In this document: piece after piece, positions 2,782-22,242 of the stretch
Layout of the letters: each line of letters opens with the position of its first letter
Numbering within the stretch: the first letter of the stretch is position 1
From: a virus
Length of the DNA: 22,565 nucleotides
Virus record (IMG/VR): IMGVR_UViG_3300025846_000041
Span: 1 to 22,565 of that record
Reading direction: 5' to 3' (one strand)
Program-made: the position numbers and the translations under genes
Notes under the pieces: generated by a model
The model's input: the letters and a program-made list of their open reading frames with translations, nothing else
Databases searched by the model: none
What the model was told of the DNA's origin: nothing

Positions 2782-5700
2782 TGTCCTATAACAAGACGGC
2801 CACTTTCAATGTCCAGGCCGTACTGCAGGGCAAGGACAAGGGCTACTCCAGCACCATGAAGAAGGCGTCCGTCGACGCCGAGCACCTGAACAAGAACATG
2901 CACGGTCTCGGCCTCGCGTTCCAGAAGGTCGGCATGTCTGGCATCGGGCGCGGCTTCGGTGACCTCAAGAACGCCCTGCGCTTCCTGGTATCCGGCAACA
3001 TCAGCCAGGGCATGTCCAGCATCGGTCGCTCGCTTGAGGGCTTCAACTCGATGGGCGGCGGCATCGTCAAGACGTTCGCCGTCGCGGCTGCGGCCATCGG
3101 CGGCTTCATCGCCATGGGCGTCAAGGGGATCCAGACCTACGCCGCCCTCGGGGCCAGCATCACGAAGATCGGCTTCGTTTCCGGCATCAATCCAGAGGCC
3201 GCCACCAATCTCTACGCGCAATTCAAGATGACCGGCGTGGACGCAGAGGCGGGGGCCAAGGCCATCGCCATGTTCACGAAGAACCTGTACAAGGCGCGGT
3301 CGGGAGTCGGAGCGCAGGCGGGGGCGCTCAAGGACCTCGGTGTCAAGCTCAAGACATCCAGTGGCGAGTGGAAGACGGCATCCGAACTACTCCCCGAAGT
3401 CCGCGATCGCCTCAGCGAGACGAAGGACTCGAGCCTGAAGGCGGGCGTCGCCATGGCCCTCTTCAGCCGTGGCTGGCAGGTCCTCGGCCGCTGGATTTCC
3501 ACGGACGAGAAGCTCATCCAGAGCTACAACGACATCGTCAAAAAGTCCGGCTTCAAGTTCGACAAGGGCGGCTACGAGAAGTTCATCCAATCGCAGCGCA
3601 AGGTCAGCCTGACGTGGGCGCTCATGTGGGCGCAGATCGGCAAGATTATGTCCCCAGCCATGACCGCCATAGCCGGGTTCATCGGTACCTGGGGGCCGCG
3701 TGCTATCAAGGTGGTGAGCGGCGTCGGCAAGGCGTTCGGTAAGGCGTTCGGCTTCCTCGGCCCCGTCCCTGCCCTCATCCTCGCCCTCGGCGTCCCCCTC
3801 GGTGCCATTGCCCTCATCTTCACCAAGTCAGTGCAGTCGGCGCAGGCGTTCAAGGGTGCGCTGAAAACCATGGGCTGGGCGGGAGAGACGGCCGCCATCG
3901 ACGCCGACACCGCTGCGCTGGTGGCCAATAACGCGGCGCGCGCTGGCGGCAGCCTGGGCGGGATGGGCGCTCCCTACGCATCTCCGCGAATGAACAGGCA
4001 GGCAGACCTGAATGCGGCTTTCAAGGCGCAAGACCTCTCGGCCATGCAGAAGGCGGGATCCGCCGCCGGCCTCGCACCCACGCTCGGCACGATCGGTAAG
4101 GCAGAGCAGCCCGTGAGCAGGCTCGGCATAGTAGCGGCCAAGACCGGCGGTGCATTCCGTTCCCTGGGCGCTGGCATCGCATCTGCCGCCGTGTCGTTCG
4201 GTCCATTCATCATCGCCGCTGCCGCCGCGGGCGCGGCCTTTCTTCTGGTCAGGCCGTTCTACAGGGAGTGGAAAGACGCCGAGAAACAGGCCGCGGATGC
4301 CACCAAGGGTTTCGCCGATGCAGTCACTCTGAACCTGGAGCGTATAGCCGACAAGTTCGGCGTGTTGTCGGACAGGTACCAAGAGTTCGCCGATCTCATG
4401 GCATCCGACGTCATGGCGTCCCTCGATGAGCAGACCAAAGGCCCGGCACTCGGACTGAGCAGGATGACGTCCAACCTCGAGGCCCAGTGGAAGCACCTTC
4501 TGGGAGAGAAGTCCGATCAGGAGGTGGCCAAGGCCGCGGGGAAGATCCTGGACACCACCCAGGCCATATTCGACAAGGGGCCCCTCACGGCGGAGGGCAA
4601 GAAGAAGATCGTCGGGGCCATCGACGATCTGAAGGGACTCGGCACCATCGCGGCCCCAGCCGTAGCCTTGCTATCGCAGCAACTCCTGAACATCGACCCA
4701 AGCGCATTGGACGATACGGCGACAAAGGCAAAGAAGGCCAAGGAGGCGCTGAAGGCCGCCGCCGACGCACTCGCGATAATCAACGTCCAGATTCCCGGCA
4801 TGTCCGGCCCAGTGGGCATGAGCAAGAGTCAGGCCGTCGCCGGTGGGTGGATGGGACTCGACAAGGCCGGGACCGAGATCATGCTCAAGGGCGCGACCAT
4901 CGTCGAGGACGTCCAGAAGACGGCCGCCGAAACCGCCGCGGCCGGGGCCGACCTAACCAACACACTCGCATCCATCCCCAAGAACATCATCGAGATTCTC
5001 AACCGCGACTGGGCCGGGATTGGCGCCGCGACATTCAACGCGATGATCGCCTTCAATAGCGGCTTCGCGTCCCTGACCGACGAACTGGTCGGGCTCTGGG
5101 GCACGCGCATGAGTAGCCTCGCGAGCATCACCAGCGCACTGGGCAGCATCCTGTCCGTATTCGCGGACGCGCCAAAGAAGGCGCTCAGGCCGCTACAACA
5201 GAACTTTGCCGCGCTCGGCGTCGCTTTGTTCAACGCCATGATGCAGGTGAACGCCGCGTTCGCGCAGATGAGCGACGAAATGCTAGTCGCGGACGCCGCA
5301 CGCATGGGCAGTATCGGCACTGCGGCAGGGGGCATCGGGTCGTTCATCTCGGCGCTCGCCGACATGCCGAAGAAGGCCGTCAGGGTCATCCCGCAGGCGT
5401 GGCACAGTCTCGCGGCAACGCTGGCATCAGCCTTGTCCGCAGTCCTCTCGGTCTTCACCGACAAGGGCCTCGCCAAGCAGGCTGAACGCGCCGGTTCGGT
5501 CGGCAGCGCGGCTGGTGGCATCGGCAGCTTCATCGGCGCCATGGCCGACATGCCGGCCAAGGCCGTGAAGATCATCCCGCAGGCGTGGAAGAAGCTGGCG
5601 ACCGTGCTGAGTGCGGCGCTCGCCGCAGTCCTCAACGTCTTCGCCGCAACCAGCACCAAGGGCCTCGCCGGTAACGCCGAGCGTATCGGCAGCATCGGCT

Positions 5701-6746
5701 CGGCGGCGGGCGGCATCGGCAGCTTCATCTCTGCCCTTGCCGATCTCCCCGACAAGGCCGTGAAGATCATCCCGCAGAAGTGGAAGGCGCTGGCGAAGGT
5801 TGTCAAGTCGGCCGTCGATCAAGTCCTCGCGGTCTTCAAGAAACTGTCCACGAAGCAGCTCGGCGACAGTGCGACTCGGGCGGGTTCCGTAGCGGGCATG
5901 GCGGGCAGTCTCGGTTCCATCATCTCGATGTTTGTCGAGGCACCCGACAAAGCTGTGGCCGTCATCCCGCAGAAGTGGCACTCCCTCGCCGTCGTCATCA
6001 AGAAGGCCGTCGAGGAGGTCCTGAAGGTCTACAAGGACATGAGCGACGAGATGCTCGGCAAGAAGGGCGACCGCATGGGCCTCATCGGCGCGATGGTCGG
6101 CCCCCTCGGCGACATCCTGTCCTACTTCGCGAACGCCCCCAAGACCATCATCACGACCATGCGCCAGAACTGGGCCGCGTTCGGCACAGCCATGATCGAA
6201 GGCGTCGGAGGCGTCCTCAAACAGTTCGCGATTTGGGACGACAAGATGCTGAAGAGTAAGTCCGAGAAGATGGGCTTCATCGGTACCATGGTCAGCGTCA
6301 TCGGAAGCATCGCCGATCTCGCCGCCTCACTTCCCGACATGGCCGCCAACCTGCAGAAGTTCGCCACCATGACCTACGGCAATCTCTGGCAGGGCATCGG
6401 CAGCGCCCTCACGCAGATGATCAACGGCATCGTCGGCGCCCTGCACATCATCCCCGATGCGACCAAGCTGCAGACCGCGCTTGACGCCGTGACCCTGCTA
6501 CGCGACATCTTCGCGTCCATGGTCGAGGTATCGGCCAATTCCGTGAACGCGATGAACACTGCGCCCGTTCCAGCCCTCGCCGCCGTCCCCGCGATGGCGA
6601 GCACCCCCGGCGGAAGCGTGGATGTGAACGTCTCATGGCAGACCCTGACCGGCGAGCCGAGTGAGCGCGAGAAGCGGCAACTTGTCCGGCGCCTGAAGCC
6701 CGAGTTCACGCGCCTCGCCAATGACCGCAAGCGGACGTCCTACTGA
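2781..6746 (+). CDS. Tape measure protein
   Basis: A 1321-residue protein with GTG start overlapping the chaperone stop by one base. Tape measure proteins span the tail lumen and set its length; at about 1.5 angstrom per residue this suggests a tail near 200 nm (inference). Hydrophobic segments lie at residues 95-117, 325-351 and 467-493, as in many tape measures. The N-terminal 300 residues are helical and Lys/Ala-rich. Residues 735-1192 hold seven tandem repeats of 62-65 residues, with cores such as IPQKWHSLA and GSIGSAAGGIGSFISALAD. The C-terminus has a strand (SVDVNVSWQTL) then a basic helix (REKRQLVRRLKPEFTRLA), typical of the end that meets the hub. No lysozyme or peptidase domain was recognised. 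Confidence 0.95.
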   Translation: MSYNKTATFNVQAVLQGKDKGYSSTMKKASVDAEHLNKNMHGLGLAFQKVGMSGIGRGFGDLKNALRFLVSGNISQGMSSIGRSLEGFNSMGGGIVKTFAVAAAAIGGFIAMGVKGIQTYAALGASITKIGFVSGINPEAATNLYAQFKMTGVDAEAGAKAIAMFTKNLYKARSGVGAQAGALKDLGVKLKTSSGEWKTASELLPEVRDRLSETKDSSLKAGVAMALFSRGWQVLGRWISTDEKLIQSYNDIVKKSGFKFDKGGYEKFIQSQRKVSLTWALMWAQIGKIMSPAMTAIAGFIGTWGPRAIKVVSGVGKAFGKAFGFLGPVPALILALGVPLGAIALIFTKSVQSAQAFKGALKTMGWAGETAAIDADTAALVANNAARAGGSLGGMGAPYASPRMNRQADLNAAFKAQDLSAMQKAGSAAGLAPTLGTIGKAEQPVSRLGIVAAKTGGAFRSLGAGIASAAVSFGPFIIAAAAAGAAFLLVRPFYREWKDAEKQAADATKGFADAVTLNLERIADKFGVLSDRYQEFADLMASDVMASLDEQTKGPALGLSRMTSNLEAQWKHLLGEKSDQEVAKAAGKILDTTQAIFDKGPLTAEGKKKIVGAIDDLKGLGTIAAPAVALLSQQLLNIDPSALDDTATKAKKAKEALKAAADALAIINVQIPGMSGPVGMSKSQAVAGGWMGLDKAGTEIMLKGATIVEDVQKTAAETAAAGADLTNTLASIPKNIIEILNRDWAGIGAATFNAMIAFNSGFASLTDELVGLWGTRMSSLASITSALGSILSVFADAPKKALRPLQQNFAALGVALFNAMMQVNAAFAQMSDEMLVADAARMGSIGTAAGGIGSFISALADMPKKAVRVIPQAWHSLAATLASALSAVLSVFTDKGLAKQAERAGSVGSAAGGIGSFIGAMADMPAKAVKIIPQAWKKLATVLSAALAAVLNVFAATSTKGLAGNAERIGSIGSAAGGIGSFISALADLPDKAVKIIPQKWKALAKVVKSAVDQVLAVFKKLSTKQLGDSATRAGSVAGMAGSLGSIISMFVEAPDKAVAVIPQKWHSLAVVIKKAVEEVLKVYKDMSDEMLGKKGDRMGLIGAMVGPLGDILSYFANAPKTIITTMRQNWAAFGTAMIEGVGGVLKQFAIWDDKMLKSKSEKMGFIGTMVSVIGSIADLAASLPDMAANLQKFATMTYGNLWQGIGSALTQMINGIVGALHIIPDATKLQTALDAVTLLRDIFASMVEVSANSVNAMNTAPVPALAAVPAMASTPGGSVDVNVSWQTLTGEPSEREKRQLVRRLKPEFTRLANDRKRTSY
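4983..6356 (+). repeat. Seven tandem ~65-residue repeats in the tape measure gene
   Basis: Seven consecutive coding repeats of about 195 bases (one of about 186). Each begins with (P/R)Q-x-W or a variant followed by a small-residue helix, then a charged turn (DEML, KGLA, KQLG), then R-x-GSIG-AAGGIGSFI and a closing A-D-x-P-x-KAV. The middle units (about 5200-5960) are most alike; the first and last are diverged. Copy number would directly alter protein length and hence tail length. Confidence 0.85.
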
Positions 6747-8278
6747 TGCAGTGGGCACGCTACGACCGCGTGATGATCGCCTGGGACGGGCAACTCGGCC
6801 CGACCTTCCGCGCTGACGACAGCCGCCCCTATCACCACTTCGTCGTGTCTCGCGGCCTCATGGGTAACGGCAGCGACGCGAGGGTCGTCGGCAAGACTGA
6901 GGCCGAAGCGTACATCGACAACGCCGTCCAGCCGAGCCGCGTCTACCACTACAGCGTGCAGGGGGCGGATGACGCGGCCGAGACGACGCTGACGGCTGTG
7001 GGGCCGAAGTTCACGGTTGCGACGCCGCATTCGCCGCCGGTGGACCGGATTCCGCCGACTGTGCCGGGGGGCCTTGCTGCGGGAGCGGCGGAGACGCCGG
7101 CAGTGGCTGGAACCTGGGCCGAGACGCAGCCTGTCGGGGACATAAACCAGTATTGGAACACTTGCGCCGTGAGCGCCGACGGTTCGGTGCTGTTGGCGGG
7201 GAGTTACACCGGCGGCAGTCTCTACCTCTCCACGAACGGCGGCTCAAGCTGGGCCGATGCCCGACCTGACGGGGTGTCTGGGGACTGGCTCACTTGCGCC
7301 GTGAGCGCCGACGGTCTGGTGCTGTTGGCGGGGGCCTTCCCCGGCCGCCTCTGGCTCTCCACCAATGGCGGCACGAGTTGGGCCGAGACGAAGCCTATCA
7401 GGAAGGATGCGTCTTGGCGTTCCTGCGCCGTGAGCGCCGACGGTCTGGTTCTGTTGGCGGGGGTCTCCGGCGGTCGTCTCTATCTCTCCACGAACGGCGG
7501 CTCAAGCTGGGCTGAGACGCAGCCTGCCGGGAACGTGGATACGTGGTGGTACTCCTGCGCCTGTGATTCCGACGGCTCGGTGCTGTTGGCGGGAGTCAGC
7601 ACCGGCCGTCTCTATCTCTCCACGAACGGCGGCTCGAGTTGGGCCGAGATGCAGCCTGCCGGGGACGTGAGTAAGGGGTGGATCGCCTGTGCTTGTGATT
7701 CCGACGGCTCGGTGCTGCTGGCGGGGGTCGAATGGGGCCTCCTCTACCTCTCCACGAACGGCGGCTCAAGCTGGGCTGAGACTTCCGGGAACATAAACCA
7801 GTATTGGCACACTTGCGCCGTGAGCGCCGACGGTTCGGTGCTGTTGGCGGGGAGTTACACCGGCGGCCATGTCTACCTCTCCACGAACGGCGGCTCAAGC
7901 TGGGCCGAGACGTATCCTCCCGCGCTCGGGTATAAAGAATGGTACTGCTGCGCCGTGAACGCCGACGGTTCGGTGCTGTTGGCGGGAGTTGTCGGCGGCC
8001 GCCTCTTCCTCTACGGGGGCGGGGTAGCCCCCGGCCCCGGCGGCGGCGGCTGGACCTGGACCCCGAGCAGCAAGGCCGACCCCACGCGCCTGCTCGCCTA
8101 CCTCGTCTACGACAGTAATCAGTCGCAGCCCAAGGCCGTCGTCTGGGCAAGGGACGCGGCGGGCGACCCCGTGACTAGCTGGCCTGATCCCACGACCGGC
8201 CCGCGCAGTTATCGCATGGCCGCCATCGACAAAGACCTGAACATCTCCGCGCCGTCGAACATCGCGACGGCGGCATGA
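6746..8278 (+). CDS. Tail-tip protein: FN3 domain interrupted by a seven-bladed Asp-box propeller
   Basis: A 510-residue protein; ATG 6746 overlaps the tape measure stop (TGATG). Residues 1-95 are a beta domain (VYHYSVQGADD). Residues 100-112, PPTVPGGLAAG, are the classic opening strand of a fibronectin III domain. The expected continuation appears only at residues 436-510 (WTWTPSS..., SYRMAAIDKDLNISAPSN). Between them, residues 124-423 form seven units of about 43 residues, each with CAVSADGSVLLAG and LYLSTNGGSSWAE. The latter is an Asp-box (S-x-N-x-G-x-x-W) as found in propellers of the BNR/Ycf48 type. No sialidase catalytic residues are apparent. Position between tape measure and hub suggests a tail-tip or adhesin role; carbohydrate binding is inference. 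Confidence 0.85.
   Translation: MQWARYDRVMIAWDGQLGPTFRADDSRPYHHFVVSRGLMGNGSDARVVGKTEAEAYIDNAVQPSRVYHYSVQGADDAAETTLTAVGPKFTVATPHSPPVDRIPPTVPGGLAAGAAETPAVAGTWAETQPVGDINQYWNTCAVSADGSVLLAGSYTGGSLYLSTNGGSSWADARPDGVSGDWLTCAVSADGLVLLAGAFPGRLWLSTNGGTSWAETKPIRKDASWRSCAVSADGLVLLAGVSGGRLYLSTNGGSSWAETQPAGNVDTWWYSCACDSDGSVLLAGVSTGRLYLSTNGGSSWAEMQPAGDVSKGWIACACDSDGSVLLAGVEWGLLYLSTNGGSSWAETSGNINQYWHTCAVSADGSVLLAGSYTGGHVYLSTNGGSSWAETYPPALGYKEWYCCAVNADGSVLLAGVVGGRLFLYGGGVAPGPGGGGWTWTPSSKADPTRLLAYLVYDSNQSQPKAVVWARDAAGDPVTSWPDPTTGPRSYRMAAIDKDLNISAPSNIATAA
7115..8014 (+). repeat. Seven Asp-box blade repeats, array 1
   Basis: Seven in-frame units of about 129 bases, highly alike at DNA level: the blocks encoding SADGSVLLAG and YLSTNGGSSW are nearly identical in several units. 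The first and sixth units share a 76-base stretch (7141-7216 and 7792-7867) with one mismatch, and the similarity continues beyond with a few more. The last unit degenerates at its end (FLYGGG) into a Gly/Pro linker. Confidence 0.9.
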
Positions 8279-8304
8279 TGACCACCAACGCCACCGGGAG
8301 GTGA
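8278..8304 (+). other. Possible minicistron MTTNATGR overlapping the ribosome binding site
   Basis: ATG 8278 overlaps the TGA of the upstream gene (ATGATG context), and its eight-codon frame stops inside the GGGAGGTGA ribosome binding site of the next gene. It resembles the minicistron at 13707 (also starting ATGACCACC). It may couple translation, or be chance. Confidence 0.25.
8296..8304 (+). promoter_or_regulatory. Ribosome binding site GGGAGGTGA preceding an ATC start
   Basis: A near-perfect anti-Shine-Dalgarno match placed nine bases (from GGAGG) before ATC 8311. The only nearby conventional starts, GTG 8301 and ATG 8278, run into stops within nine codons. The site therefore decides in favour of ATC as initiator for the following gene. 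Confidence 0.7.
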
Positions 8305-8310
8305 GCTACC

Positions 8311-8808
8311 ATCGCTAATAACATCTCGATTCTGGACGGCGCTGGCGTCAGCAAGACCGTCGCAACGACCGACACCGGCGGCGTCCACACCGAGCACGCC
8401 GAACTGGTTGCCAGCACAGCGGCCATCGGCAAGCTCACGGCGAACCCCGACGTTGAGATCGGCTCCGTGAAGATAGCCGCCAACGGCAAGACTCGCGTGA
8501 GTAAGCGCGTCGCCCTGACGGCATCTCAGACCGGCGTTACCATCTGGGACCCGACTGCCGGCACGAAGTTCGTCCTGACCAAGCTCGTCGTCTCCTGCAA
8601 GACCGCGGGCGACGTTGACTTCTTCGATTCCACCGACAGCGGCAACACGGTCATCACCCCCATCATCACAATGGCCATCGGTGGCACATGGCTGGCAATC
8701 TGGCAACTGGACATGCCTTACACCTCGGCCACCGCCGACAACATCCTCAAGTACACCAGCGGCAGCGGCTTCACGGGCAGTGTCTATGCCGAGGGATGGG
8801 AAGTCTGA
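8311..8808 (+). CDS. Tail-associated beta protein of unknown function, apparent ATC start
   Basis: With ATC 8311 as start the protein is 165 residues and begins (M)ANNISILDGAGVS, a typical phage structural protein opening. The first conventional in-frame start is GTG 8467, which has no good ribosome binding site and would remove 52 residues of clearly coding sequence (TVATTDTGGVHTEHAEL). The rest is beta-rich, with blocks GTKFVLTKLVVSC, DVDFFDSTDSGNTVI and a C-terminal GSVYAEGWEV. Similar small beta proteins occur in phage tail and decoration gene sets, but I recognise no named family. The next gene starts directly at its stop. Location in the tail-tip cluster implies a virion protein. Confidence 0.75.
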   Translation: MANNISILDGAGVSKTVATTDTGGVHTEHAELVASTAAIGKLTANPDVEIGSVKIAANGKTRVSKRVALTASQTGVTIWDPTAGTKFVLTKLVVSCKTAGDVDFFDSTDSGNTVITPIITMAIGGTWLAIWQLDMPYTSATADNILKYTSGSGFTGSVYAEGWEV

Positions 8809-9063
8809 TTGAGCCTGTTCTCCCTCCTGCGCGGCGGCAACGCGCCGACCATAACGGGCTTCGCACCGGCCTCGGCTCTGGTCGGCCACACAGTGACCAT
8901 CACCGGGACCGGCTTCATCGGCGCGACGGCGCTCTCCTTCCACGGCACGGCAGCGACCGCGTGGAGCGTCGTCAGTAACACCACGATCAGTGCCAAGGTG
9001 CCGGTGGGGGCGACGAGTGGGGTAATTACCGTCACGCATCCGGCAGGCAGCGTGCAGTCGTGA
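8809..9063 (+). CDS. Stand-alone IPT/TIG immunoglobulin-like domain protein
   Basis: An 84-residue protein starting at TTG 8809, immediately after the preceding TGA; GAGGGA upstream is a weak-to-fair site. Apart from a short leader (MSLFSLLRGG) it consists of one IPT/TIG domain: APTITGFAPASALVGHTVTI, TGTGFIGATALSFHG, then TTISAKVPVGATSGVITVTH. Such Ig-like folds usually sit inside larger surface or tail proteins; a protein made of one alone is unusual. Its TGA overlaps the hub gene's GTG (GTGA), so the two are probably translated together. It may decorate the tail tip. A second IPT domain is embedded in the spike gene at 14315. Confidence 0.85.
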   Translation: MSLFSLLRGGNAPTITGFAPASALVGHTVTITGTGFIGATALSFHGTAATAWSVVSNTTISAKVPVGATSGVITVTHPAGSVQS

Positions 9064-12056
9064 CCGACTTCACCGTCGTAAGTGCGCCTGCCGCCCCGGC
9101 GTCGGGTTCTCTCACCAACGCGGTCCATACGCTCATCGGCCAGATCAACGTCACCGTGGGCGGCACCGATTACACCGCCTATGCCGAGAACCTGACCTAC
9201 GACGTCAACACGTCCGGCGGCTTCGGCGCCTGCTCCTTCCGCCTGCGCCCGCCCGCGACCCCGCCGAGCTACGATGACGCGATCCTCATCACAGCCTACG
9301 GCGAGACGCTGTACTCGGGAACGGTCGTCAACACGCCGGACATCGCCTACACCGGCGAGAACGTCGCTTACGAGGTCGTCGGCGAGGGACCGGCGCGGGG
9401 GTTCGGCACCGCCGAGGACTTCGCATGGATGGGCAACGACCGCGACCTCGGTGCATGGAAACAACTCGACTGCCAGCACTGGGACGCGGCGGCCAACGGT
9501 TTCGAGATCACGCAGGCCGTGGACGCAGGACTGCGCTTCCAGTCGAGCGACGTCGATGCACTGGCGACCGACCAGAGCAGCATCGACGGCGCCTACAAGT
9601 ACCAGGGCCTGGCGGGGGATTACATTGGGAACTCCCCGCCCGTCTCGGCCGCGAACAAGAACTGGATGGTCACGGCGTCCGACTCCGACGGCTCGGTACT
9701 TCTGGCCGGCGCCTACGGCGGTCGCCTCTACCTTTCCGTCGACGGCGGCACGACGTGGACCAGGCAGACTCCTGCTGGGAACGCGGACAGACTGTGGCGC
9801 ACCTGCGCCTCCGACTCCGACGGCTCGGTACTTCTGGCTGGAGTCAACCGGGGCCGCCTCTACCTCACGTCAAACAGCGGAGCGGACTGGGCCGAGGTGC
9901 GGCCCGCAGGAAGCGCGAACAAGGGTTGGCAAGTCTGCGCCTGCGACTCGGATGGTTCCGTGCTTTTGGCGGGGGACTTCGGCAGCGAAACAGGGGCTGG
10001 CGGGCGCCTTTACATCTCGACCGACGGCGGCGTGAACTGGACGGAGGCCCGGCCTGCCGGCGACACGAACCAGCACTGGCGCAGCGGATCGGCCAGCGCC
10101 GACGGAGCCGTCTTGCTTGCAGGAGTCCACGATGGCCGCCTCTGGCTCTCGACAAACAGCGGCACGACATGGACGCAGCAGACGCCCGCCGGGGTCACGG
10201 ATCAGGACTGGCGCGGTTGTGCCGTAAGCGCCAACGGCGCGGTATTGCTGGCGGGCGATTACGGCGGCAGCGTGCCGGCAAGCGGCGCCCGTCTCTGGCT
10301 GTCTACCAACGGCGGCTCTAGCTGGGCCGAAACCAGGCCCGCCGGGGACGTCAGCAAGCACTGGCGCAGTTGCGCCGTGGATGCCGACGGCTCAGTCCTG
10401 CTAGCGGGGACATACGGAGGCAGGCTCTACCGTTCGACCAACAGCGGGTCAAGCTGGACAGAGATGACGCCCGCCGGGTCCGTGGACAGGAACTGGCGTA
10501 GCTGCACCTCAGACTCTGACGGCTCCGTGCTAATGGTCGCGGCCTACGGTGGCAGGCTCTACCTGTCGACTGACGGCGGCGCGACGTGGCATGAGCTGGC
10601 GCCCGCCGACGCCGACTACGCCGCCGACTGCCCGCCGGCGAAAATCCTCTGGTCGGCGCACTACTACCACATTCAGGACGGGCTGACCGCGGACCGCATC
10701 ACGGGCCTGAAGGCGCAGGCGCGGTATGACCTGCGGACGCCGATCGAGGACGCGAAGACCATCGACAACCTCAACGACCCGCAGGGCGCCGCGGACCCCG
10801 ATTACGGCCACCGCTTCTCGACCTATTCCACGCTCAATATGTGGACTGAGTTCTACCACCTCGACGCCCCGCCCGGCTCCATGTGGGCGGCCGTCTATGC
10901 CTGCGACGATCCGCGCGACCTGCCGATCAAGGATCCGGTGGCGATGCTTGACGACCCGCACCGCCTGCACCTGTTCGAGCCGCGCAGTCATACCGACCCC
11001 GTGGTCTACGCGGTCGACGACGAGGGCTTCATCGAATACGACGAGATGGGCCACGCCGTCATCGCCACGCCCGCCGAAGAAGAGGCCATCGACTTGACCT
11101 GTGACAACAAGTTCCTCGTCTTCTACTCCAGCTACGTGGTCATCCAGCTTCCGGTGCCGTTCAACGCCCTGTACGACGCGGGCCTCGACCACCTCGTGTG
11201 GAGCGAGTGGTACGCGCTCAACACCCTGTATACCGAATCTGGACAGTTCTGCGAACTGCGCGACGTGGAGATCCTGGCGAACGGTTACCCGGGCGGCAAT
11301 GACCTCGCGTGGGCCATCGGGGCCGTGGTCGGTGGCGGTGACATCAGCCCCGTCACCCTGACCGGCAAGCCGACCCTCAAGATCGAGCCGTACACGACCA
11401 AGCTCGCCGGCATCGAGCAACTTGTCGGCATGTCACCCGACCCGCTGTACTGGGGATGGGACCCCGACTTCTTCTGCACGACCGACCGGGGCAGCGTGAG
11501 CTTTGATGCCGACATACCCGGCGTCACCGTGGCGGCGGCCATCAAGAACGACGGCGTAATTGACACGGCCACCGTCATCTATTCGGACTCGACGGGCGAG
11601 CTTGACGACCGCCGCGTGCTGGCCGCATGGGTGCCCTACAGCCTGACCTTCGACATGAACGGCGACGGCGTGACGAGTCCGGCTGAGATGAGCGGGCTTA
11701 TCGACGCATCGCACATCGCCTGCGACGCCGACTGCGCCGCCGAGATCGCCCAGTCACTCATAGACCAGCGCGGCGGCCACGGCCCGCAGTGGGAAGGGAC
11801 CATCACCCTGCTCGGCTACGCGCGGGCGGGGGCGACCCCGGTCGGCAGCAGCGTCAACTGCGGGGACGTCTCCGGGGGCATCGTCACTTCGCTATCCGCG
11901 GACGTGGACGGCGACAGCGTCACCCTGTCACTGGGCGGGACTGGCTTTGAGGATCGGTTCGCTAGCAGCCCTGGCCAGCCGAACTCCGCAGTGCCGGCAA
12001 ACTCTTCGGCCGCCAAGGGGCCGCCGATGCGCTACATGCTCCAAAGGGGGGATTGA
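9060..12056 (+). CDS. Baseplate hub-like tail protein with an inserted seven-bladed propeller
   Basis: A 998-residue protein starting at GTG 9060 over the previous stop. Residues 20-130 resemble the first domain of siphovirus hub proteins: INVTVGGTDYTAYAENLTYD, then a strand pair ILITAYGETLYSGTV followed by VAYEVVGEGPARGF. Residues about 188-515 are seven Asp-box blades of the type seen in the gene at 6746. The remaining half (515-998) is beta-rich and ends with EGTITLLGYARAGATPVGSS and SLSADVDGDSVTLSLG, like the hub C-terminal strands. An EF-hand-like loop, DMNGDGVTSPAE, starts at residue 865. Hubs close the tail tube and carry the receptor-binding apparatus. Assignment as hub is moderately sure; the propeller is clear. 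Confidence 0.75.
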   Translation: MTDFTVVSAPAAPASGSLTNAVHTLIGQINVTVGGTDYTAYAENLTYDVNTSGGFGACSFRLRPPATPPSYDDAILITAYGETLYSGTVVNTPDIAYTGENVAYEVVGEGPARGFGTAEDFAWMGNDRDLGAWKQLDCQHWDAAANGFEITQAVDAGLRFQSSDVDALATDQSSIDGAYKYQGLAGDYIGNSPPVSAANKNWMVTASDSDGSVLLAGAYGGRLYLSVDGGTTWTRQTPAGNADRLWRTCASDSDGSVLLAGVNRGRLYLTSNSGADWAEVRPAGSANKGWQVCACDSDGSVLLAGDFGSETGAGGRLYISTDGGVNWTEARPAGDTNQHWRSGSASADGAVLLAGVHDGRLWLSTNSGTTWTQQTPAGVTDQDWRGCAVSANGAVLLAGDYGGSVPASGARLWLSTNGGSSWAETRPAGDVSKHWRSCAVDADGSVLLAGTYGGRLYRSTNSGSSWTEMTPAGSVDRNWRSCTSDSDGSVLMVAAYGGRLYLSTDGGATWHELAPADADYAADCPPAKILWSAHYYHIQDGLTADRITGLKAQARYDLRTPIEDAKTIDNLNDPQGAADPDYGHRFSTYSTLNMWTEFYHLDAPPGSMWAAVYACDDPRDLPIKDPVAMLDDPHRLHLFEPRSHTDPVVYAVDDEGFIEYDEMGHAVIATPAEEEAIDLTCDNKFLVFYSSYVVIQLPVPFNALYDAGLDHLVWSEWYALNTLYTESGQFCELRDVEILANGYPGGNDLAWAIGAVVGGGDISPVTLTGKPTLKIEPYTTKLAGIEQLVGMSPDPLYWGWDPDFFCTTDRGSVSFDADIPGVTVAAAIKNDGVIDTATVIYSDSTGELDDRRVLAAWVPYSLTFDMNGDGVTSPAEMSGLIDASHIACDADCAAEIAQSLIDQRGGHGPQWEGTITLLGYARAGATPVGSSVNCGDVSGGIVTSLSADVDGDSVTLSLGGTGFEDRFASSPGQPNSAVPANSSAAKGPPMRYMLQRGD
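9621..10605 (+). repeat. Seven Asp-box blade repeats, array 2
   Basis: Seven units of about 43-51 residues with SDGSVLLAG or a variant, then GRLYLS-DGG-TW or GRLWLSTNSGTTW. Two blades carry short loop insertions (FGSETGAG in unit 3, YGGSVPASGA in unit 5). Units are more diverged at DNA level than array 1 and prefer different codons (GTACTTCTGGC rather than GTGCTGTTGGC), so this array looks older or separately acquired. Confidence 0.9.
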
Positions 12057-12567: not shown

Positions 12568-12969
12568 ATGACCGAGCACGACTTCAGAGAACAGATAATC
12601 GCACGCGTGGCATCGCTCACGACGGCGGTCGACATGCTCAAGATTGAGGTCCGTGAGACCACCGATCAACTCTGGCGGCGGACCGATGACCGCTTCAGGG
12701 CAATGGAAACGGCCACCTCGGCGGCCCTTGCGGCGGCGGATAAGGCGAACGTTACGGCACTCACGGCGGCGGAAAAGGCCGTGGTCAAGCAGGAGCTCCT
12801 CGCCATGGCCCGATCCGCGCAGCAGGACGACCGGATCAGCGATCTCAGTACCCGCGCGGAGCAGGGTACGGGTCGTGGGGAAGGTCAGAAGGCCACCCTC
12901 TACGGCGCTGCGGCGATCATCATGGCCCTCGTCGCCGTCGTCTCGCTAATCACCCAGTTCGCCCACTAG
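12568..12969 (+). CDS. Holin-like protein with coiled coil and C-terminal membrane segment
   Basis: A 133-residue protein starting at ATG 12568 (AAGCAAGGG upstream). Residues 1-100 are a heptad-rich helix (RVASLTTAVDMLKIEVRE, then Ala/Lys/Glu-rich segments) predicted to form a coiled coil. Residues 109-131 (ATLYGAAAIIMALVAVVSL...) form one membrane helix at the end. This soluble-coiled-coil-plus-one-TM plan is shared by holin-associated proteins of the XhlA type and by several phage holins. The endolysin gene follows directly, its ribosome binding site overlapping this gene's TAG. A pore-forming or endolysin-release role is inferred from layout. A spanin is less likely because no lipobox or second membrane partner is seen. 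Confidence 0.7.
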   Translation: MTEHDFREQIIARVASLTTAVDMLKIEVRETTDQLWRRTDDRFRAMETATSAALAAADKANVTALTAAEKAVVKQELLAMARSAQQDDRISDLSTRAEQGTGRGEGQKATLYGAAAIIMALVAVVSLITQFAH

Positions 12970-12973
12970 GAGG
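12968..12973 (+). promoter_or_regulatory. Ribosome binding site AGGAGG preceding an ATC start
   Basis: A consensus AGGAGG overlapping the upstream TAG stop, five bases before ATC 12979. An in-frame stop at 12967 excludes any earlier start, and the first conventional start (ATG 13006) is 32 bases from this site. Together with the site at 8296 it points to ATC initiation. Confidence 0.7.
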
Positions 12974-12978
12974 CACCC

Positions 12979-13707
12979 ATCAACATCATCATCCTCAAAG
13001 CCGAGATGCGCGCCTACGCCAAGGCGAACAAGCTCGAGATCCCGCCGGTCACCTGGAGGACCGCGACCTGGGGCGGCAATGCCAAGACCCTCGCCTGGCG
13101 CGTCAGCAAGCACAAGACCGGGCACGGCACCACCGAGAAGAACGCCCTCTGGGCGATGTTCCATCCGGCGCCCCAGTACGCCGTCAGGCACGACTACGAC
13201 GCCGTGCATCACAGCGGGAACCGCGCCCTCGCCGTGGTCCACCAGATCGTCCTGCACGACATGGAGGTTGCAGCCTTCCTCACAGCCGCCGAGGACGTCG
13301 GCCGCTACTTCGAGATGAAGCAGTCCGGCGGCTCGACAAACGCCGGCGTCGACAACAACTCGATCCAGAGCTACCTCGACGACACCGTGATCCCGTGGGG
13401 CGCGCCCTACGTCAATACGAGCGGCGAGCATGTCGAGCAGATGGGCAAGGCATCTTGGACCGAGGCCGAGTGGAAGAAGTACGCCGCCGGCACGCTCGAC
13501 CGGACGGCCTGGTGGATTGCCCGTAAGGCGAAGAAGCTCCACATCCCGATCCGCGCCCTAACCGATGAGCAACTCCATGCCAACGAGAAGGGCATCACCA
13601 CGCATCGGCAGTGCTCGCGGGTGTTCCACATCTACGGAGGCCACACCGATCCCGGCACAGGTTTCCCCTACGCGGAGATCCTGGAGACGGCAAGGAAGTA
13701 CGCATAA
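12979..13707 (+). CDS. Endolysin: N-acetylmuramoyl-L-alanine amidase, apparent ATC start
   Basis: From ATC 12979 the protein is 242 residues and begins (M)NIIILKAEMRAYAKAN; the first conventional start, ATG 13006, would drop nine residues and lies too far from the AGGAGG. The fold fits the Amidase_2/PGRP family, zinc amidases that cut the bond between MurNAc and the stem peptide. Visible are QIVLHDMEVA with a probable zinc ligand His93, a GVDNNSIQSYLDDTVIPWGA substrate-cleft segment, GEHVEQMG, and the late GGHTDPGTGFP motif with His222 and Asp224. A separate cell-wall-binding domain is not obvious; N-terminal residues 1-80 may help. It lies behind the holin-like gene, forming a lysis cassette placed within the tail and adhesin genes. 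Confidence 0.88.
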   Translation: MNIIILKAEMRAYAKANKLEIPPVTWRTATWGGNAKTLAWRVSKHKTGHGTTEKNALWAMFHPAPQYAVRHDYDAVHHSGNRALAVVHQIVLHDMEVAAFLTAAEDVGRYFEMKQSGGSTNAGVDNNSIQSYLDDTVIPWGAPYVNTSGEHVEQMGKASWTEAEWKKYAAGTLDRTAWWIARKAKKLHIPIRALTDEQLHANEKGITTHRQCSRVFHIYGGHTDPGTGFPYAEILETARKYA

Positions 13708-17433: not shown

Positions 17434-18193
17434 TCCGCTCACAGTCTGGAGCACGACGGCTGACGGCTGGATAAGGTCCATCAACGCGACGTATGCGACC
17501 GCAGCAGGGGCGACATCCGGGGGGGGCCTAAACGACTCCGGGTCAACGATGGTTGTCGGTCAAGAGGCCGGATTCTCCATCTACGAGTCATTCGTCGGGT
17601 TCGACACCTCCGGCGTCGGGGCCGAAAACTCTGCCACCGCCGCCACCCTAAGCGTCTACGGGAATTATGACCAGAGCACGACGGACTTCGTCATCCAAGC
17701 ACGCCTCAAAGACTGGGGCGGCAGTCTTGATGTGTCCACCGACTGGGTCAAAGACAGCAGCCTCGGTGCACTGACTCTACTCGCCTCATACGCGACGAGT
17801 GGCGGCTTTCCCACGAACGCCTACACCGCACTCACCGGCGAATCGGCGTTTCTCAGCAACATCGCCAAAACCGGCACGACTTACATTCTCCTGAACTCCG
17901 ACAGGCACGCGAGCACGACACAGCCTCCCAACGAGGAAGACGTCTATCTCTATTCCGCCAACGACGCCACCGGCGTCGGCGGCACCGACCGCGACCCGAA
18001 ACTATACGTGGAGTACGGTGTCCCCGCCGTCGCCCCCACCGTCACAATCGTGGGCATCAGTGCCATCACTGAGAACTCCGCCGCGAGTGGCGGCTGGGTT
18101 GTTGCAGAGGGCAGCGCCGAGGTTACCGAGAGGGGCGTCTGCTGGAACATGGGCGGTACCCCGACCATTGCCGACTCGCATACGCACGACTAA
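17426..18193 (+). CDS. Second jelly-roll-like adhesin ending in an FN3 front half
   Basis: A 255-residue protein; ATG 17426 overlaps the previous gene by eight bases behind GGGTGG. Residues 1-200 form a beta-sandwich of the same general plan as the protein at 16132 (SFVGFDTSGVGAENSATAAT, LYSANDATGVGGTDRDP, KLYVEYGVP). Residues 203-255 are an FN3 front half (APTVTIVGISAITENSAASG, VTERGVCWNMGGTP, IADSHTHD) followed at once by TAA. The cut is at the same FN3 residue as in the earlier gene. Its stop overlaps the fibre gene's ATG (TAATG), so translation is probably coupled to the protein that carries the FN3 back halves. Confidence 0.82.
   Translation: MASPLTVWSTTADGWIRSINATYATAAGATSGGGLNDSGSTMVVGQEAGFSIYESFVGFDTSGVGAENSATAATLSVYGNYDQSTTDFVIQARLKDWGGSLDVSTDWVKDSSLGALTLLASYATSGGFPTNAYTALTGESAFLSNIAKTGTTYILLNSDRHASTTQPPNEEDVYLYSANDATGVGGTDRDPKLYVEYGVPAVAPTVTIVGISAITENSAASGGWVVAEGSAEVTERGVCWNMGGTPTIADSHTHD
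18032..18190 (+). other. FN3 front half (second of two)
   Basis: Encodes the front strands of a GVCW-type FN3 domain from APTVTIVGISAIT to ADSHTHD. It aligns over its whole length with the copy at 16786-16944, but the DNA is well diverged apart from the end (GACTCGCATACGCA in both). Confidence 0.75.
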
Positions 18194-21100
18194 TGTCTAC
18201 CGCCGTCACCAAGTACCCCACCGTCACCAGCACCACCAACGCTACAGCTCCGTATAGCAATGACGACTGGGTAACTATTGCGGGCATCAAGGCCGAGAAC
18301 AGCACTTACGCCTACATCGACGCCAGCACCTTCGACGCCGCTGATTATAGTTTCCTAGCCAAGGCACAGCACTTCGACTTCGCCATCCCTGCGGGCGCGA
18401 CCATCGGCGGTCTCGCCGTCAATGCAGAGGCCGCCTGTTACGCGGGCACGACCAAGGCCGTTTGGTCCGATGTCCAGCTACTCAATGCCTCGGGTGCCGC
18501 CGAGGGCGACAACAATGCCGCAGACGGCGGGACGCTTACCGCATCCGACGCCGTCTACACCTTCGGCGGGATAACCGATAAGTGGAACGTCGCCCTCACC
18601 CCGGCGATGGTCAACGACGACGATTTCGGCATGCAGTTCGCCATCCAGGCGAAGAACGCCAATACCGACATCCGCGTCGATTATGTGACGATCACCGTCT
18701 ACTACACGATTCCCAGCGGCACTGGAGCCCTCACAGCGGGAGCGGTCAGCGTTGCCGGTGCAGGAACGGTCATACCTGTGACCACGGGCTCGGGAGCCCT
18801 CGTGGCAGGAGCGGCCAGCGTTGCCGGTGCAGGAACGGTCATACCTGTGACCACGGGCTCGGGAGCCCTCGTGGCAGGAGCGGCCAGCGTTGCCGGTGCG
18901 GGCGATGGCGGTACGCCGTTCACGAGTGCCCTGACCGGACTGGGCGCGGAGACCACGTACCACGTCCGGGCCTATGCCACGAGCACTGCCGGGACGAGCT
19001 ACTCAGCCGAACTCGACTTCGCGACGACAGAATCAACGTACCCGCAAGGCTCCGGCACCGTCACGACCGGGAAGACATCGGTCAGCGGCGTGGGCACAGT
19101 CAAGACTTCCGGGGCGGGCGCGCTCACTGTTGCTTCTCCTGCTGTGACCGGCGCGGCAAAGCACATCCTCAAGGGCGTCGCCGTGTTGCTGGTCGCCGCT
19201 GTGGTTGTAGCGGGAGCGGGGAAGTTCATCGTCTCCGGTACGGGTGCTCTGACGACAGGCAGGGCGTCCGTCGCTGGCGCGGGCGCGGTCACGCCGAAGG
19301 TCTCTGGCTCAGGTGGCCTTACGGTCGGTGCAGTTGCAGTATCCGGCAGCGGAACGCGCACGATCCTGAGTGGCAGCGGCTCCTTGACTGCTGGTGCTGC
19401 CTCTGTCGCCGGAATCGGGACCGCACACTTCGCCGGGGCAGGTGCAGTTACCACAGGCAGGGCATCTGCCATCGGTGCTGGCACCGAGAAGACCTCCGGC
19501 AGCGGCGCTCTGGCCACGGGCAAGGCGGCGGTCTCTGGTGTCGGCGACAACGAGTACATATCGACTGGCGGGCTGACCAGCGCCGCGGCGACGGTCGCGG
19601 GTAGCGGGAAGCTCAAGAATGCTGGCGCAGGCAGCCTGGACACAGGCGCCGCCTCGACGTCCGGCTCAGGTGCAGCGCACTTTGTCGGGATCGGCGCGAT
19701 CACGGCGGCGGCAGCGAGCACCGCTGGAGCAGGCGACGCCGAAGACATCGCTATCGGCGGATTGACCACGGCGCCAGCGCAGGTCGCAGGGGCCGGTCAA
19801 CTCAAGGACGCGGGCACGGGCACGCTCACGACCGCCGCATCCGCTATCGCGGGCAGCGGCACCGTCGGGCTCGAGTTCGATAGTTTCCTCACCGACCTTG
19901 CCGCCGACACGCACTACTACGTGCGCGCCTACGCGACCAACTCGGCGGGCACCAGTTACGGTAACGTCGAGGAGTTCGACACTGAGGTCGGCACGCCCAA
20001 CGGTTCCGGTGCGCTCACCACAGGTGCCGCCGCCATCGTCGGTTCCGGTTCGGTCAAGACTTCGGGCACAGGCACGCTCACGACGAGAGTCGCTGCCGTT
20101 GCGGGTACGGGCAGCGAGAAGACGACTGGCGCGGGGGCTTTGACGACCGTAGCCGCGAGTCTCGGCGCGGCGGGCACCTTCAGGAACATCGGTACTGGTG
20201 CCGCGACCACCGGAGCGGCTATGGCCACCGGCAGCGGCGCGGTACACTTTACGAGCGCGGGTGCGCTCACGGCCGCGACGACGACGGCGACCGGCGTCGG
20301 TAGCGCGTACTTCGTCGGTACAGGTGCGCTTACGACTGCAACAGTCAGCGTAGCCGCAGTCGGCGATACCGAAGACGTAGCAGTCGGCGGGCTAACTACC
20401 GCTGCAGCATCTGTCGCGGGCGTCGGCGCTACCAAGACCGCAGGTACCGGCGCACTCACTGCGGGTACCGCGAGCCTCGCGGGCACGGGCACCTCCGGCA
20501 TCTCCTTCGCTAGCGCGCTCACCGACCTCGACGCAGACACCGTCTACCACGTCCGCGCCTACGCGACCAACGCCGGCGGCACCGCATACGGCGACGAGGT
20601 CGACTTCGAGACCGAGGCTGCGGGCGTCTCTGGCGCACTCACGACGGCAGCCGCGTCGCTCGCGGGCAGCGGCGACGTTCATCTGCTCGGTGCCGGTACC
20701 TGCGACGTGCCCGCCTTCTCCGTCAGCGGCGCCGGCGCACCGCTGCACACAGCGACTGGCGCGCTCACAGCGGGTGCCGCCAGCGTCGCGGGCATCGGCG
20801 ACACCGAGTACGTCTCGATAGGCGGCCTCACAACCGCTGCGGCTTCCGTGGCGGGTGCAGGTAAGACCACGGTGGCTGGCGCAGGCGCGATCACCGCGAG
20901 AGCGGCGCAGGCGAGCGGCGCAGGCACCACGATCCTCAGCGGCTCGGGCGTTCTCACGACGGCCAATATCACGGTCGACGGCACCGCGCAGGCCACGGCC
21001 CCTGGTGCGACATCGGGGACGGGCACCGTCACGACGGGCAGTGTCGCAGTTGCTGGCGCGGGCGAGGCTACCGTCCCGGCGGCCACGGACGGCAGCGGCG

Positions 21101-22242
21101 TACTCGCTACGGGTACGGCCAGCCTCGCGGGCGCAGGCAAGCTCAAGAACATTGGCGCGGGTTCCCTCGCGACCGCCACCACGGCCGTAGTCGGAGCGGG
21201 CAGCGAGAAGACCGCAGGCAGCGGCGCTCTGACGACGGGCACCGCTTCCGTCTCCGGTAGCGGAGCCGCGAAGACCAGCGGCACCGGCGCGCTGACCGTC
21301 GCGGTCACCGCAGTTGCGGGAGTCGGCGACTGGCAGCATATCGCCCTCGGCGGACTCACCACGGCGACCGCCTCCGTCACGGGTTCGGGCAAGACTACGA
21401 CCGTTGGCACGGGCTTGCTCACAACCGCCAGCGCGACTGCAAGCGGCGTCGGCGGCAGCAAGACAAGCGGCACAGGTTCGCTTACCACGGCCACGGTCGT
21501 GGTCGCAGGCGAAGCCACAGCCACGGCTCCCGGCGAGACTTCGGGATACGGCGCACTCACGACAGCAGGCGCTTCCGTCTCCGGGGCAGGCACGGCGACC
21601 GCACCGTCCGCCGTCAGCGGTACCGGTGCGCTGACGACCGGCAAGGCGTCGGCATCCGGCGCGGGCGTTGAGAAGACTCTAGGAACCGGCGCACTCACCG
21701 CAGGCAAGTCTAAGATCGCAGGTTCGGGCGCGGCCAAGACGCTCGGCACTGGAACTCTGACCGCCGGAGCCTCGACGGTCACCGGCGCGGGCACGGTCCA
21801 TTTTGTCGGCGCCGGAGTGGTCACGGCAGCGGCAACGAGCGTTGCGGGCATCGGACAGACCAAGACCAGCGGTACTGGCACCGTCACCGTGGGCGCGGCG
21901 CGGGTGCAGGGCCAGGGCACGTCCAGGACGTTCGGCGCGGGCAGCCTATGCGCCACCTCCGCCAACGTCGCCGGCATCGGCACCACGGCCGTCTATACGA
22001 CCGGGACCGGCGCCCTCACCACGACGAAGGTCAAGGTCAGCGGCGAGGGCAAAGTGTGGTGGCCCGACATGGTCTTCACCGTCACCCTCGTTCCAAGCGG
22101 CTGGAACGCGCGGCTCCTGCGCGAGGGCTGGTCGGTGGAGACGCAGGCAGAGGTGTGGGCGGCGCGGCTGCGCGCGAATGGATGGCAGGCAGACATGCAA
22201 CCGAGCGGCTGGAAGGCTGCGGTCAGGAGAGACGAGAAATGA
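18193..22242 (+). CDS. Giant repetitive tail fibre-like protein (46 units of ~21 residues)
   Basis: A 1349-residue protein; ATG 18193 overlaps the previous TAA. Residues 1-175 are a beta-sandwich (FDFAIPAGATIGGLAVNAEA, FGMQFAIQAKN, VDYVTITVYYT). From about residue 176 to 1290 come 46 units, mostly 21 residues, of pattern G-x-G-A-L-T-T-G-x-A-S-V-x-G-x-G plus five variable residues. They are almost free of charged or aromatic residues except in the variable positions. Three units (3, 16 and 24) break off after the G-x-G and continue into an FN3 back half. The C-terminus has five Trp spaced nine residues apart (1304-1340). Extended, regular repeats suggest a long beta-structured fibre shaft; function in host attachment is inferred from context. 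I recognise no named family for the 21-residue unit. Confidence 0.85.
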   Translation: MSTAVTKYPTVTSTTNATAPYSNDDWVTIAGIKAENSTYAYIDASTFDAADYSFLAKAQHFDFAIPAGATIGGLAVNAEAACYAGTTKAVWSDVQLLNASGAAEGDNNAADGGTLTASDAVYTFGGITDKWNVALTPAMVNDDDFGMQFAIQAKNANTDIRVDYVTITVYYTIPSGTGALTAGAVSVAGAGTVIPVTTGSGALVAGAASVAGAGTVIPVTTGSGALVAGAASVAGAGDGGTPFTSALTGLGAETTYHVRAYATSTAGTSYSAELDFATTESTYPQGSGTVTTGKTSVSGVGTVKTSGAGALTVASPAVTGAAKHILKGVAVLLVAAVVVAGAGKFIVSGTGALTTGRASVAGAGAVTPKVSGSGGLTVGAVAVSGSGTRTILSGSGSLTAGAASVAGIGTAHFAGAGAVTTGRASAIGAGTEKTSGSGALATGKAAVSGVGDNEYISTGGLTSAAATVAGSGKLKNAGAGSLDTGAASTSGSGAAHFVGIGAITAAAASTAGAGDAEDIAIGGLTTAPAQVAGAGQLKDAGTGTLTTAASAIAGSGTVGLEFDSFLTDLAADTHYYVRAYATNSAGTSYGNVEEFDTEVGTPNGSGALTTGAAAIVGSGSVKTSGTGTLTTRVAAVAGTGSEKTTGAGALTTVAASLGAAGTFRNIGTGAATTGAAMATGSGAVHFTSAGALTAATTTATGVGSAYFVGTGALTTATVSVAAVGDTEDVAVGGLTTAAASVAGVGATKTAGTGALTAGTASLAGTGTSGISFASALTDLDADTVYHVRAYATNAGGTAYGDEVDFETEAAGVSGALTTAAASLAGSGDVHLLGAGTCDVPAFSVSGAGAPLHTATGALTAGAASVAGIGDTEYVSIGGLTTAAASVAGAGKTTVAGAGAITARAAQASGAGTTILSGSGVLTTANITVDGTAQATAPGATSGTGTVTTGSVAVAGAGEATVPAATDGSGVLATGTASLAGAGKLKNIGAGSLATATTAVVGAGSEKTAGSGALTTGTASVSGSGAAKTSGTGALTVAVTAVAGVGDWQHIALGGLTTATASVTGSGKTTTVGTGLLTTASATASGVGGSKTSGTGSLTTATVVVAGEATATAPGETSGYGALTTAGASVSGAGTATAPSAVSGTGALTTGKASASGAGVEKTLGTGALTAGKSKIAGSGAAKTLGTGTLTAGASTVTGAGTVHFVGAGVVTAAATSVAGIGQTKTSGTGTVTVGAARVQGQGTSRTFGAGSLCATSANVAGIGTTAVYTTGTGALTTTKVKVSGEGKVWWPDMVFTVTLVPSGWNARLLREGWSVETQAEVWAARLRANGWQADMQPSGWKAAVRRDEK
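18751..18888 (+). repeat. Exact 69-base tandem duplication
   Basis: 18751-18819 and 18820-18888 are identical by eye (GTTGCCGGTGCAGGAACGGT...), and the match continues into 18889-18899. The unit encodes 23 residues, one fibre repeat. Perfect identity next to diverged units indicates a recent slippage event. Confidence 0.9.
18901..19035 (+). other. FN3 back half 1 inside the fibre gene
   Basis: Encodes GDGGTPFTSALTGL then TTYHVRAYATSTAGTSYSAE and LDFATTE, the E-F-G strands of a GVCW-type FN3 domain. It follows the ASVAGAG end of a fibre unit with no front half before it. Confidence 0.75.
19858..19992 (+). other. FN3 back half 2 inside the fibre gene
   Basis: Encodes TVGLEFDSFLTDLAADTHYY and VRAYATNSAGTSYGN, ending EEFDTEVG. 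It joins the preceding fibre unit at the same register (AIAGSG) as the first copy. Confidence 0.75.
20491..20625 (+). other. FN3 back half 3 inside the fibre gene
   Basis: Encodes TSGISFASALTDLDADTVYH and VRAYATNAGGTAYGDE, ending VDFETEAAG. It joins after SLAGTG, again the same position in the fibre unit. Confidence 0.75.
22102..22212 (+). repeat. Five Trp at exact nine-residue spacing (fibre C-terminus)
   Basis: Trp codons at 22102, 22129, 22156, 22183 and 22210 (residues 1304, 1313, 1322, 1331, 1340), each usually preceded by Gly and followed by a short alternating stretch (WNARLLREG, WAARLRANG, WQADMQPSG). This is a small 27-base-period repeat closing the fibre. Confidence 0.85.

Follow-up and report, generated by a model that had tools for sequence, protein, structure and literature searches.

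The locus raises the question of where translation of a phage endolysin begins, and whether an ATC codon can be its start. The window analyzed here is the whole 22,565-nucleotide stretch of a metagenomic viral record (IMGVR_UViG_3300025846_000041), and its endolysin region holds the following features:

12568..12969, + strand: upstream ORF of 133 amino acids, in the endolysin frame; its terminal TAG and the ribosome site of the endolysin overlap
12968..12973, + strand: AGGAGG, Shine-Dalgarno sequence of the endolysin gene, kept in the relative L002 as TAGGAGGCAC
12974-12978, + strand: spacer CACCC between AGGAGG and ATC
12979..12981, + strand: ATC, putative endolysin start codon; L002 carries ATG at the corresponding position
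13006..13008, + strand: first in-frame ATG, codon 10, without a Shine-Dalgarno sequence; an internal Met conserved in L002
12979..13707, + strand: endolysin gene, 242 amino acids, with a phrog_12609 match and an 86% identical relative

Positions 12967-12981 read TAGGAGGCACCCATC, that is, a TAG, the AGGAGG overlapping it, a 5-nt spacer, and ATC. The ATC shares its frame with ATG 13006 and the TAA at 13705-13707, giving 242 codons in a frame that is open from 12970. These coordinates bear out two points of the initial annotation, namely, that AGGAGG overlaps the previous stop with ATC five bases on and that the in-frame TAG at 12967-12969 bars any earlier start. The arrangement AGGAGG-N5-ATC occurs once in the window, against 0.11 occurrences expected from shuffles. 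The product of the upstream ORF has one hydrophobic segment near its C terminus; family searches gave it no match, and it may be termed holin-like by position only.

The endolysin product matches phrog_12609, a phage endolysin family, over residues 79-240 (E = 9e-28), and this match places it among phage endolysins. A Pfam search returned no family for it, no solved structure related by sequence was found, and its predicted structure, with a mean pLDDT of 43.6, was of too low quality to be informative. No relatives were found in bacterial genomes, and a nucleotide search found no close phage records. Other relatives in phage records reached at most about 33% identity, and their alignments, none of which begins before residue 42, are uninformative about the start. 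A resemblance to proteins of actinobacterial phages is only a hint as to the host; the terminase is closest to those of Firmicutes phages (37%).

The one informative relative in the collections searched (L002) is encoded on a 94-kb phage record (G002) and is 86% identical to the endolysin over all 242 residues. Its gene begins TAGGAGGCACTATGAATATCATCGTT, where the window gene reads TAGGAGGCACCCATCAACATCATCATC; the start regions compared are TAGGAGGCACTATGAATATCATC and TAGGAGGCACCCATCAACATCATC, and the two proteins are colinear from residue 1, with the ATG of the relative sitting exactly at the codon homologous to ATC 12979. At the protein level, the codons that precede ATG 13006 are conserved (INIIILKAE versus MNIIVLKAD), with two synonymous and two conservative changes, start codon apart. 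The ATG of this close relative makes the odd ATC start look real, and together with the codon conservation it supports initiation at 12979 well, at the level of sequence. Alignable DNA homology between the two phages begins at TAGGAGG, and the genes upstream differ, a membrane-type ORF in the window and, judged by eye, a papain-like protein gene in G002; the ribosome site thus travels with the endolysin gene. The lysis region is modular in this respect, phage-to-phage homology beginning at that site, and the papain-like gene that precedes the endolysin in G002 follows the membrane-type ORF in a sister phage (G004; portal identity, 93%), at reverse-strand coordinates 3700-5400. A weak endolysin-like match in G004 did not hold up on reading of the locus.

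The endolysin is not the only gene of the window with this layout. The other case to which the initial annotation alludes is present as a sequence pattern, between tail-region genes:

8278..8304, + strand: eight-codon ORF (MTTNATGR), its TGA inside the Shine-Dalgarno sequence, in the frame of the second ATC gene
8297..8304, + strand: GGAGGTGA, Shine-Dalgarno sequence of the second ATC gene
8311..8313, + strand: ATC, putative start of the second gene, from the Shine-Dalgarno scan and census
8311..8808, + strand: second ATC gene, 165 amino acids

Here the ATC follows GGAGGTGA by six bases and an in-frame TGA lies at 8302-8304; the eight-codon ORF itself starts in a TGATG overlap with the stop of the preceding gene, and the next standard start, GTG 8467, lies deep in the frame. 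None of the collections searched held a relative of the 165-residue protein, and an N-terminal match to tail fibers was discarded (E about 8). The ATC start at 8311 is real as a sequence pattern, and it is this pattern that argues for initiation there. A stable hairpin predicted for 8270-8345 pairs the Shine-Dalgarno sequence of this gene, and translation of the eight-codon ORF could open it. Two neighboring tail-region proteins (6746-8278 and 9060-12056) carry many near-identical Asp-box/BNR-like repeats (LLLAG..GGRLYLSTNGGSSW), and farther along, a 1,349-residue protein (18193-22242) is built almost entirely from short GTGALTTGAASVAGAG-type repeats.

The frequency of such starts was surveyed on a second record, IMGVR_UViG_3300025836_000010 (G001; 61,572 bases), which is 100% identical to the window over all of its 22,565 bases. 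Seventy-nine genes of this 61.6-kb sequence were predicted by codon usage, and Shine-Dalgarno matches were sought near their starts; the gene caller was a simple one, and the census covers starts whose match spans 6 bases or more. Among genes with such a match, ATG, GTG, or TTG stood in register in every case but three: the two ATC genes (12979 and 8311) and a third that looks like a chance match. ATC makes up 3.4% of codons, and this census, like the ATG of the relative, indicates more than a chance pattern. The initial annotation suggested a host or phage that uses ATC starts; at 2 of 79 predicted genes, they are not a genome-wide habit. The same census of G002 (134 genes) and G004 (95 genes) gave no convincing ATC start. 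In G002, a gene of about 446 codons (reverse-strand coordinates 24750-26090) has a frame that opens just after GGAGGTAG with ATT CTG and a first ATG at codon 13; it is another candidate for a near-cognate start, at CTG or ATT, and here too a stop overlaps the Shine-Dalgarno sequence. The open literature searched, which lacks most subscription papers, describes no AUC or ATC starts in phages.

How might AUC be used? The normal initiator tRNA (fMet, anticodon CAU) would read AUC 12979 with a third-base mismatch. Two things would put a ribosome on this codon: the strong AGGAGG, and termination of the preceding gene at the overlapping UAG, which sets ribosomes free there. IF3 would discriminate against AUC and so hold endolysin output below that from AUG, and low output may delay or limit lysis. 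The gene at AUC 8311 would work by the same layout, a strong Shine-Dalgarno sequence and a short in-frame ORF whose stop lies 6 nt ahead of the AUC. In both ATC genes, an upstream ORF in the same frame stops 6 or 9 bases ahead of the ATC, a layout that suits re-initiation by just-terminated ribosomes and from which coupling to the upstream ORF may be inferred. A search of G001 for a phage-encoded IF3 gave no match to the IF3_C family. We consider it probable that this is a weak AUC start helped by a strong Shine-Dalgarno sequence and by coupling, with IF3 lowering output, a model in which AUC use, coupling, IF3 sensitivity, the lower output, and its value for lysis are all deduced.

Known systems make such a model reasonable. 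The infC gene of Escherichia coli starts at AUU. Its Streptomyces counterpart begins with ATC, and the start codon of Streptomyces sigR, a gene that IF3 represses, is GTC (PMC5472188). Like the endolysin gene, infC thus has a near-cognate AUN start of the kind that IF3 discriminates against; unlike it, infC is controlled by the protein it encodes and its rare start is well documented, whereas the endolysin is a phage gene with a presumed IF3 effect and one relative that has ATG. The sigR and endolysin start codons both end in C, and that of sigR keeps the protein scarce, but sigR differs in its codon, in encoding a cellular regulator, and in having been shown experimentally. AUU and AUA starts in Staphylococcus aureus accompany extended Shine-Dalgarno sequences and reduced yield; ccpN (AUA) and cvfC1 (AUU) resemble the endolysin gene in joining a near-cognate start to a strong Shine-Dalgarno sequence, which there lowers output (PMC13009471). 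Those starts are conserved across species and their output has been measured, whereas the endolysin ATC is known from sequence and is replaced by ATG in the relative. The lysis protein of the RNA phage MS2, which is unrelated to the endolysin, starts at UUG. Output of this coupled gene is restricted at the initiation step, which depends on ribosomes that finish the upstream gene (cited in PMC2268962); re-initiation requires both IF2 and initiator tRNA, and an excess of IF3 lowers it (PMC2268962). In one reporter, AUU, AUA, CUG, and AUC gave 0.1 to 0.3% of AUG activity in E. coli and 5 to 20% in two clostridia (PMC9680021). Taken together, these near-cognate and re-initiation data suggest the model of a weak AUC rescued by a strong Shine-Dalgarno sequence and coupling; activity as low as that in E. 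coli may not suffice for a lysis enzyme without help from coupling or from host factors.

Whether the rare codon has a purpose is a separate matter. By its sequence, the endolysin gene starts at a codon other than ATG, GTG, or TTG, and the sole relative does not keep that codon; such conservation would support regulation and does not strictly define the class of near-cognate starts. The ATG of the relative speaks against old, conserved regulation. It is quite possible, although we think it the less probable reading, that ATC is used but is a recent neutral or slightly harmful substitution, tolerated by way of the strong Shine-Dalgarno sequence and without a regulatory role. This account contests the purpose and not the start itself, and it overlaps with the explanation that we prefer. 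Both the ATG of the relative and a second ATC gene with no evident need for low output favor it; against it, two cases occur in one genome, each with a strong Shine-Dalgarno sequence and an upstream in-frame ORF. The idea in the initial annotation that a lysis gene is deliberately translated weakly therefore survives in part, being plausible from the known efficiency of AUC but opposed by the relative's ATG and by a second ATC gene that is not recognizable as a lysis gene. Avoidance of CATG was considered as a cause of the ATG loss and rejected, as CATG is not avoided (273 seen versus 202 expected).

Initiation at ATG 13006, with ATC unused and a protein nine residues shorter, is unlikely. That ATG is the first standard start in the frame, it is what standard ORF finding reports, and its Met is conserved in the relative; however, a Shine-Dalgarno scan found no ribosome site upstream of it, a perfect one stands 5 nt before the ATC, and codons 1 to 9 are conserved as protein in a relative whose own codon 1 is ATG. 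The initial annotation had judged ATG 13006 too far from the ribosome site, and the same evidence upholds that judgment. Initiation at ATC 12979 is thus the better reading, and the endolysin start is most likely, from its sequence, a further case of the known near-cognate type.

A sequencing or assembly error at a true ATG is very improbable; the initial annotation had called a sequencing error less likely. The ATG of the relative would fit an error, but the separate 61,572-base record is identical across the whole window, which makes a one-off assembly error unlikely; because one assembly would hardly yield two contigs with 22.5 kb in common, that record probably confirms the sequence independently. 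An error would moreover have had to strike twice, independently, at exactly two start codons, and near the start the window differs from the relative in other ways too, being one base longer. Equally improbable is read-through of TAG 12967 and TGA 8302, fusing the endolysin to the membrane-type protein and starting the second gene at ATG 8278: both upstream ORFs are ATG-started and in frame with their ATC genes, but two different stop codons would be involved, the upstream gene in G002 is a different one whose TAG is followed at once by TGA (TAG GAG GCA CTA TGA) and whose frame is not that of the endolysin ATG, and in G004 the gene next to the homologue of the upstream ORF, on its downstream side, is unrelated and has ATG.

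The supply of initiator tRNA may bear on the same codon. Outside the window, ARAGORN calls a tRNA-Met(CAT) between the portal and head protease genes of G001, right after a small Cys-rich ORF:

G001, reverse-strand coordinates 7688-7760 (L008:13813-13885, − strand): initiator-like tRNA, 73 nt

It folds best into a cloverleaf in which positions 1 and 72 are mismatched and three G-C pairs (GGG/CCC) flank the loop CTCATAA, so that the cloverleaf, the CAT anticodon, the three anticodon-stem G-C pairs, and the 1-72 mismatch of an initiator tRNA are all present. The 3' two-thirds align with an annotated Salmonella tRNA-Met and with the tRNA-Met of a Tunturiibacter phage, and a related contig (97.8%) carries the element unchanged. 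The Rfam tRNA model gave no match up to E = 1, and with this and its short D arm we call it initiator-like only. ARAGORN found no such tRNA in the portal region of G004 or in G002, where the endolysin has ATG, a single comparison that proves nothing. It is a long shot that a phage initiator-type tRNA, expressed late, raises AUC initiation and acts as a timer for a few late genes, including the endolysin; if it did, these would be made well only with the phage tRNA present.

Gene finders usually accept ATG, GTG, and TTG alone, and starts like this ATC are consequently lost or moved. A rare start codon that limits a lysis enzyme would, if true, be a simple means of setting lysis output. A phage tail/lysis operon with AUC starts may serve as a testbed for control by IF3, by coupling, and by the supply of initiator tRNA.
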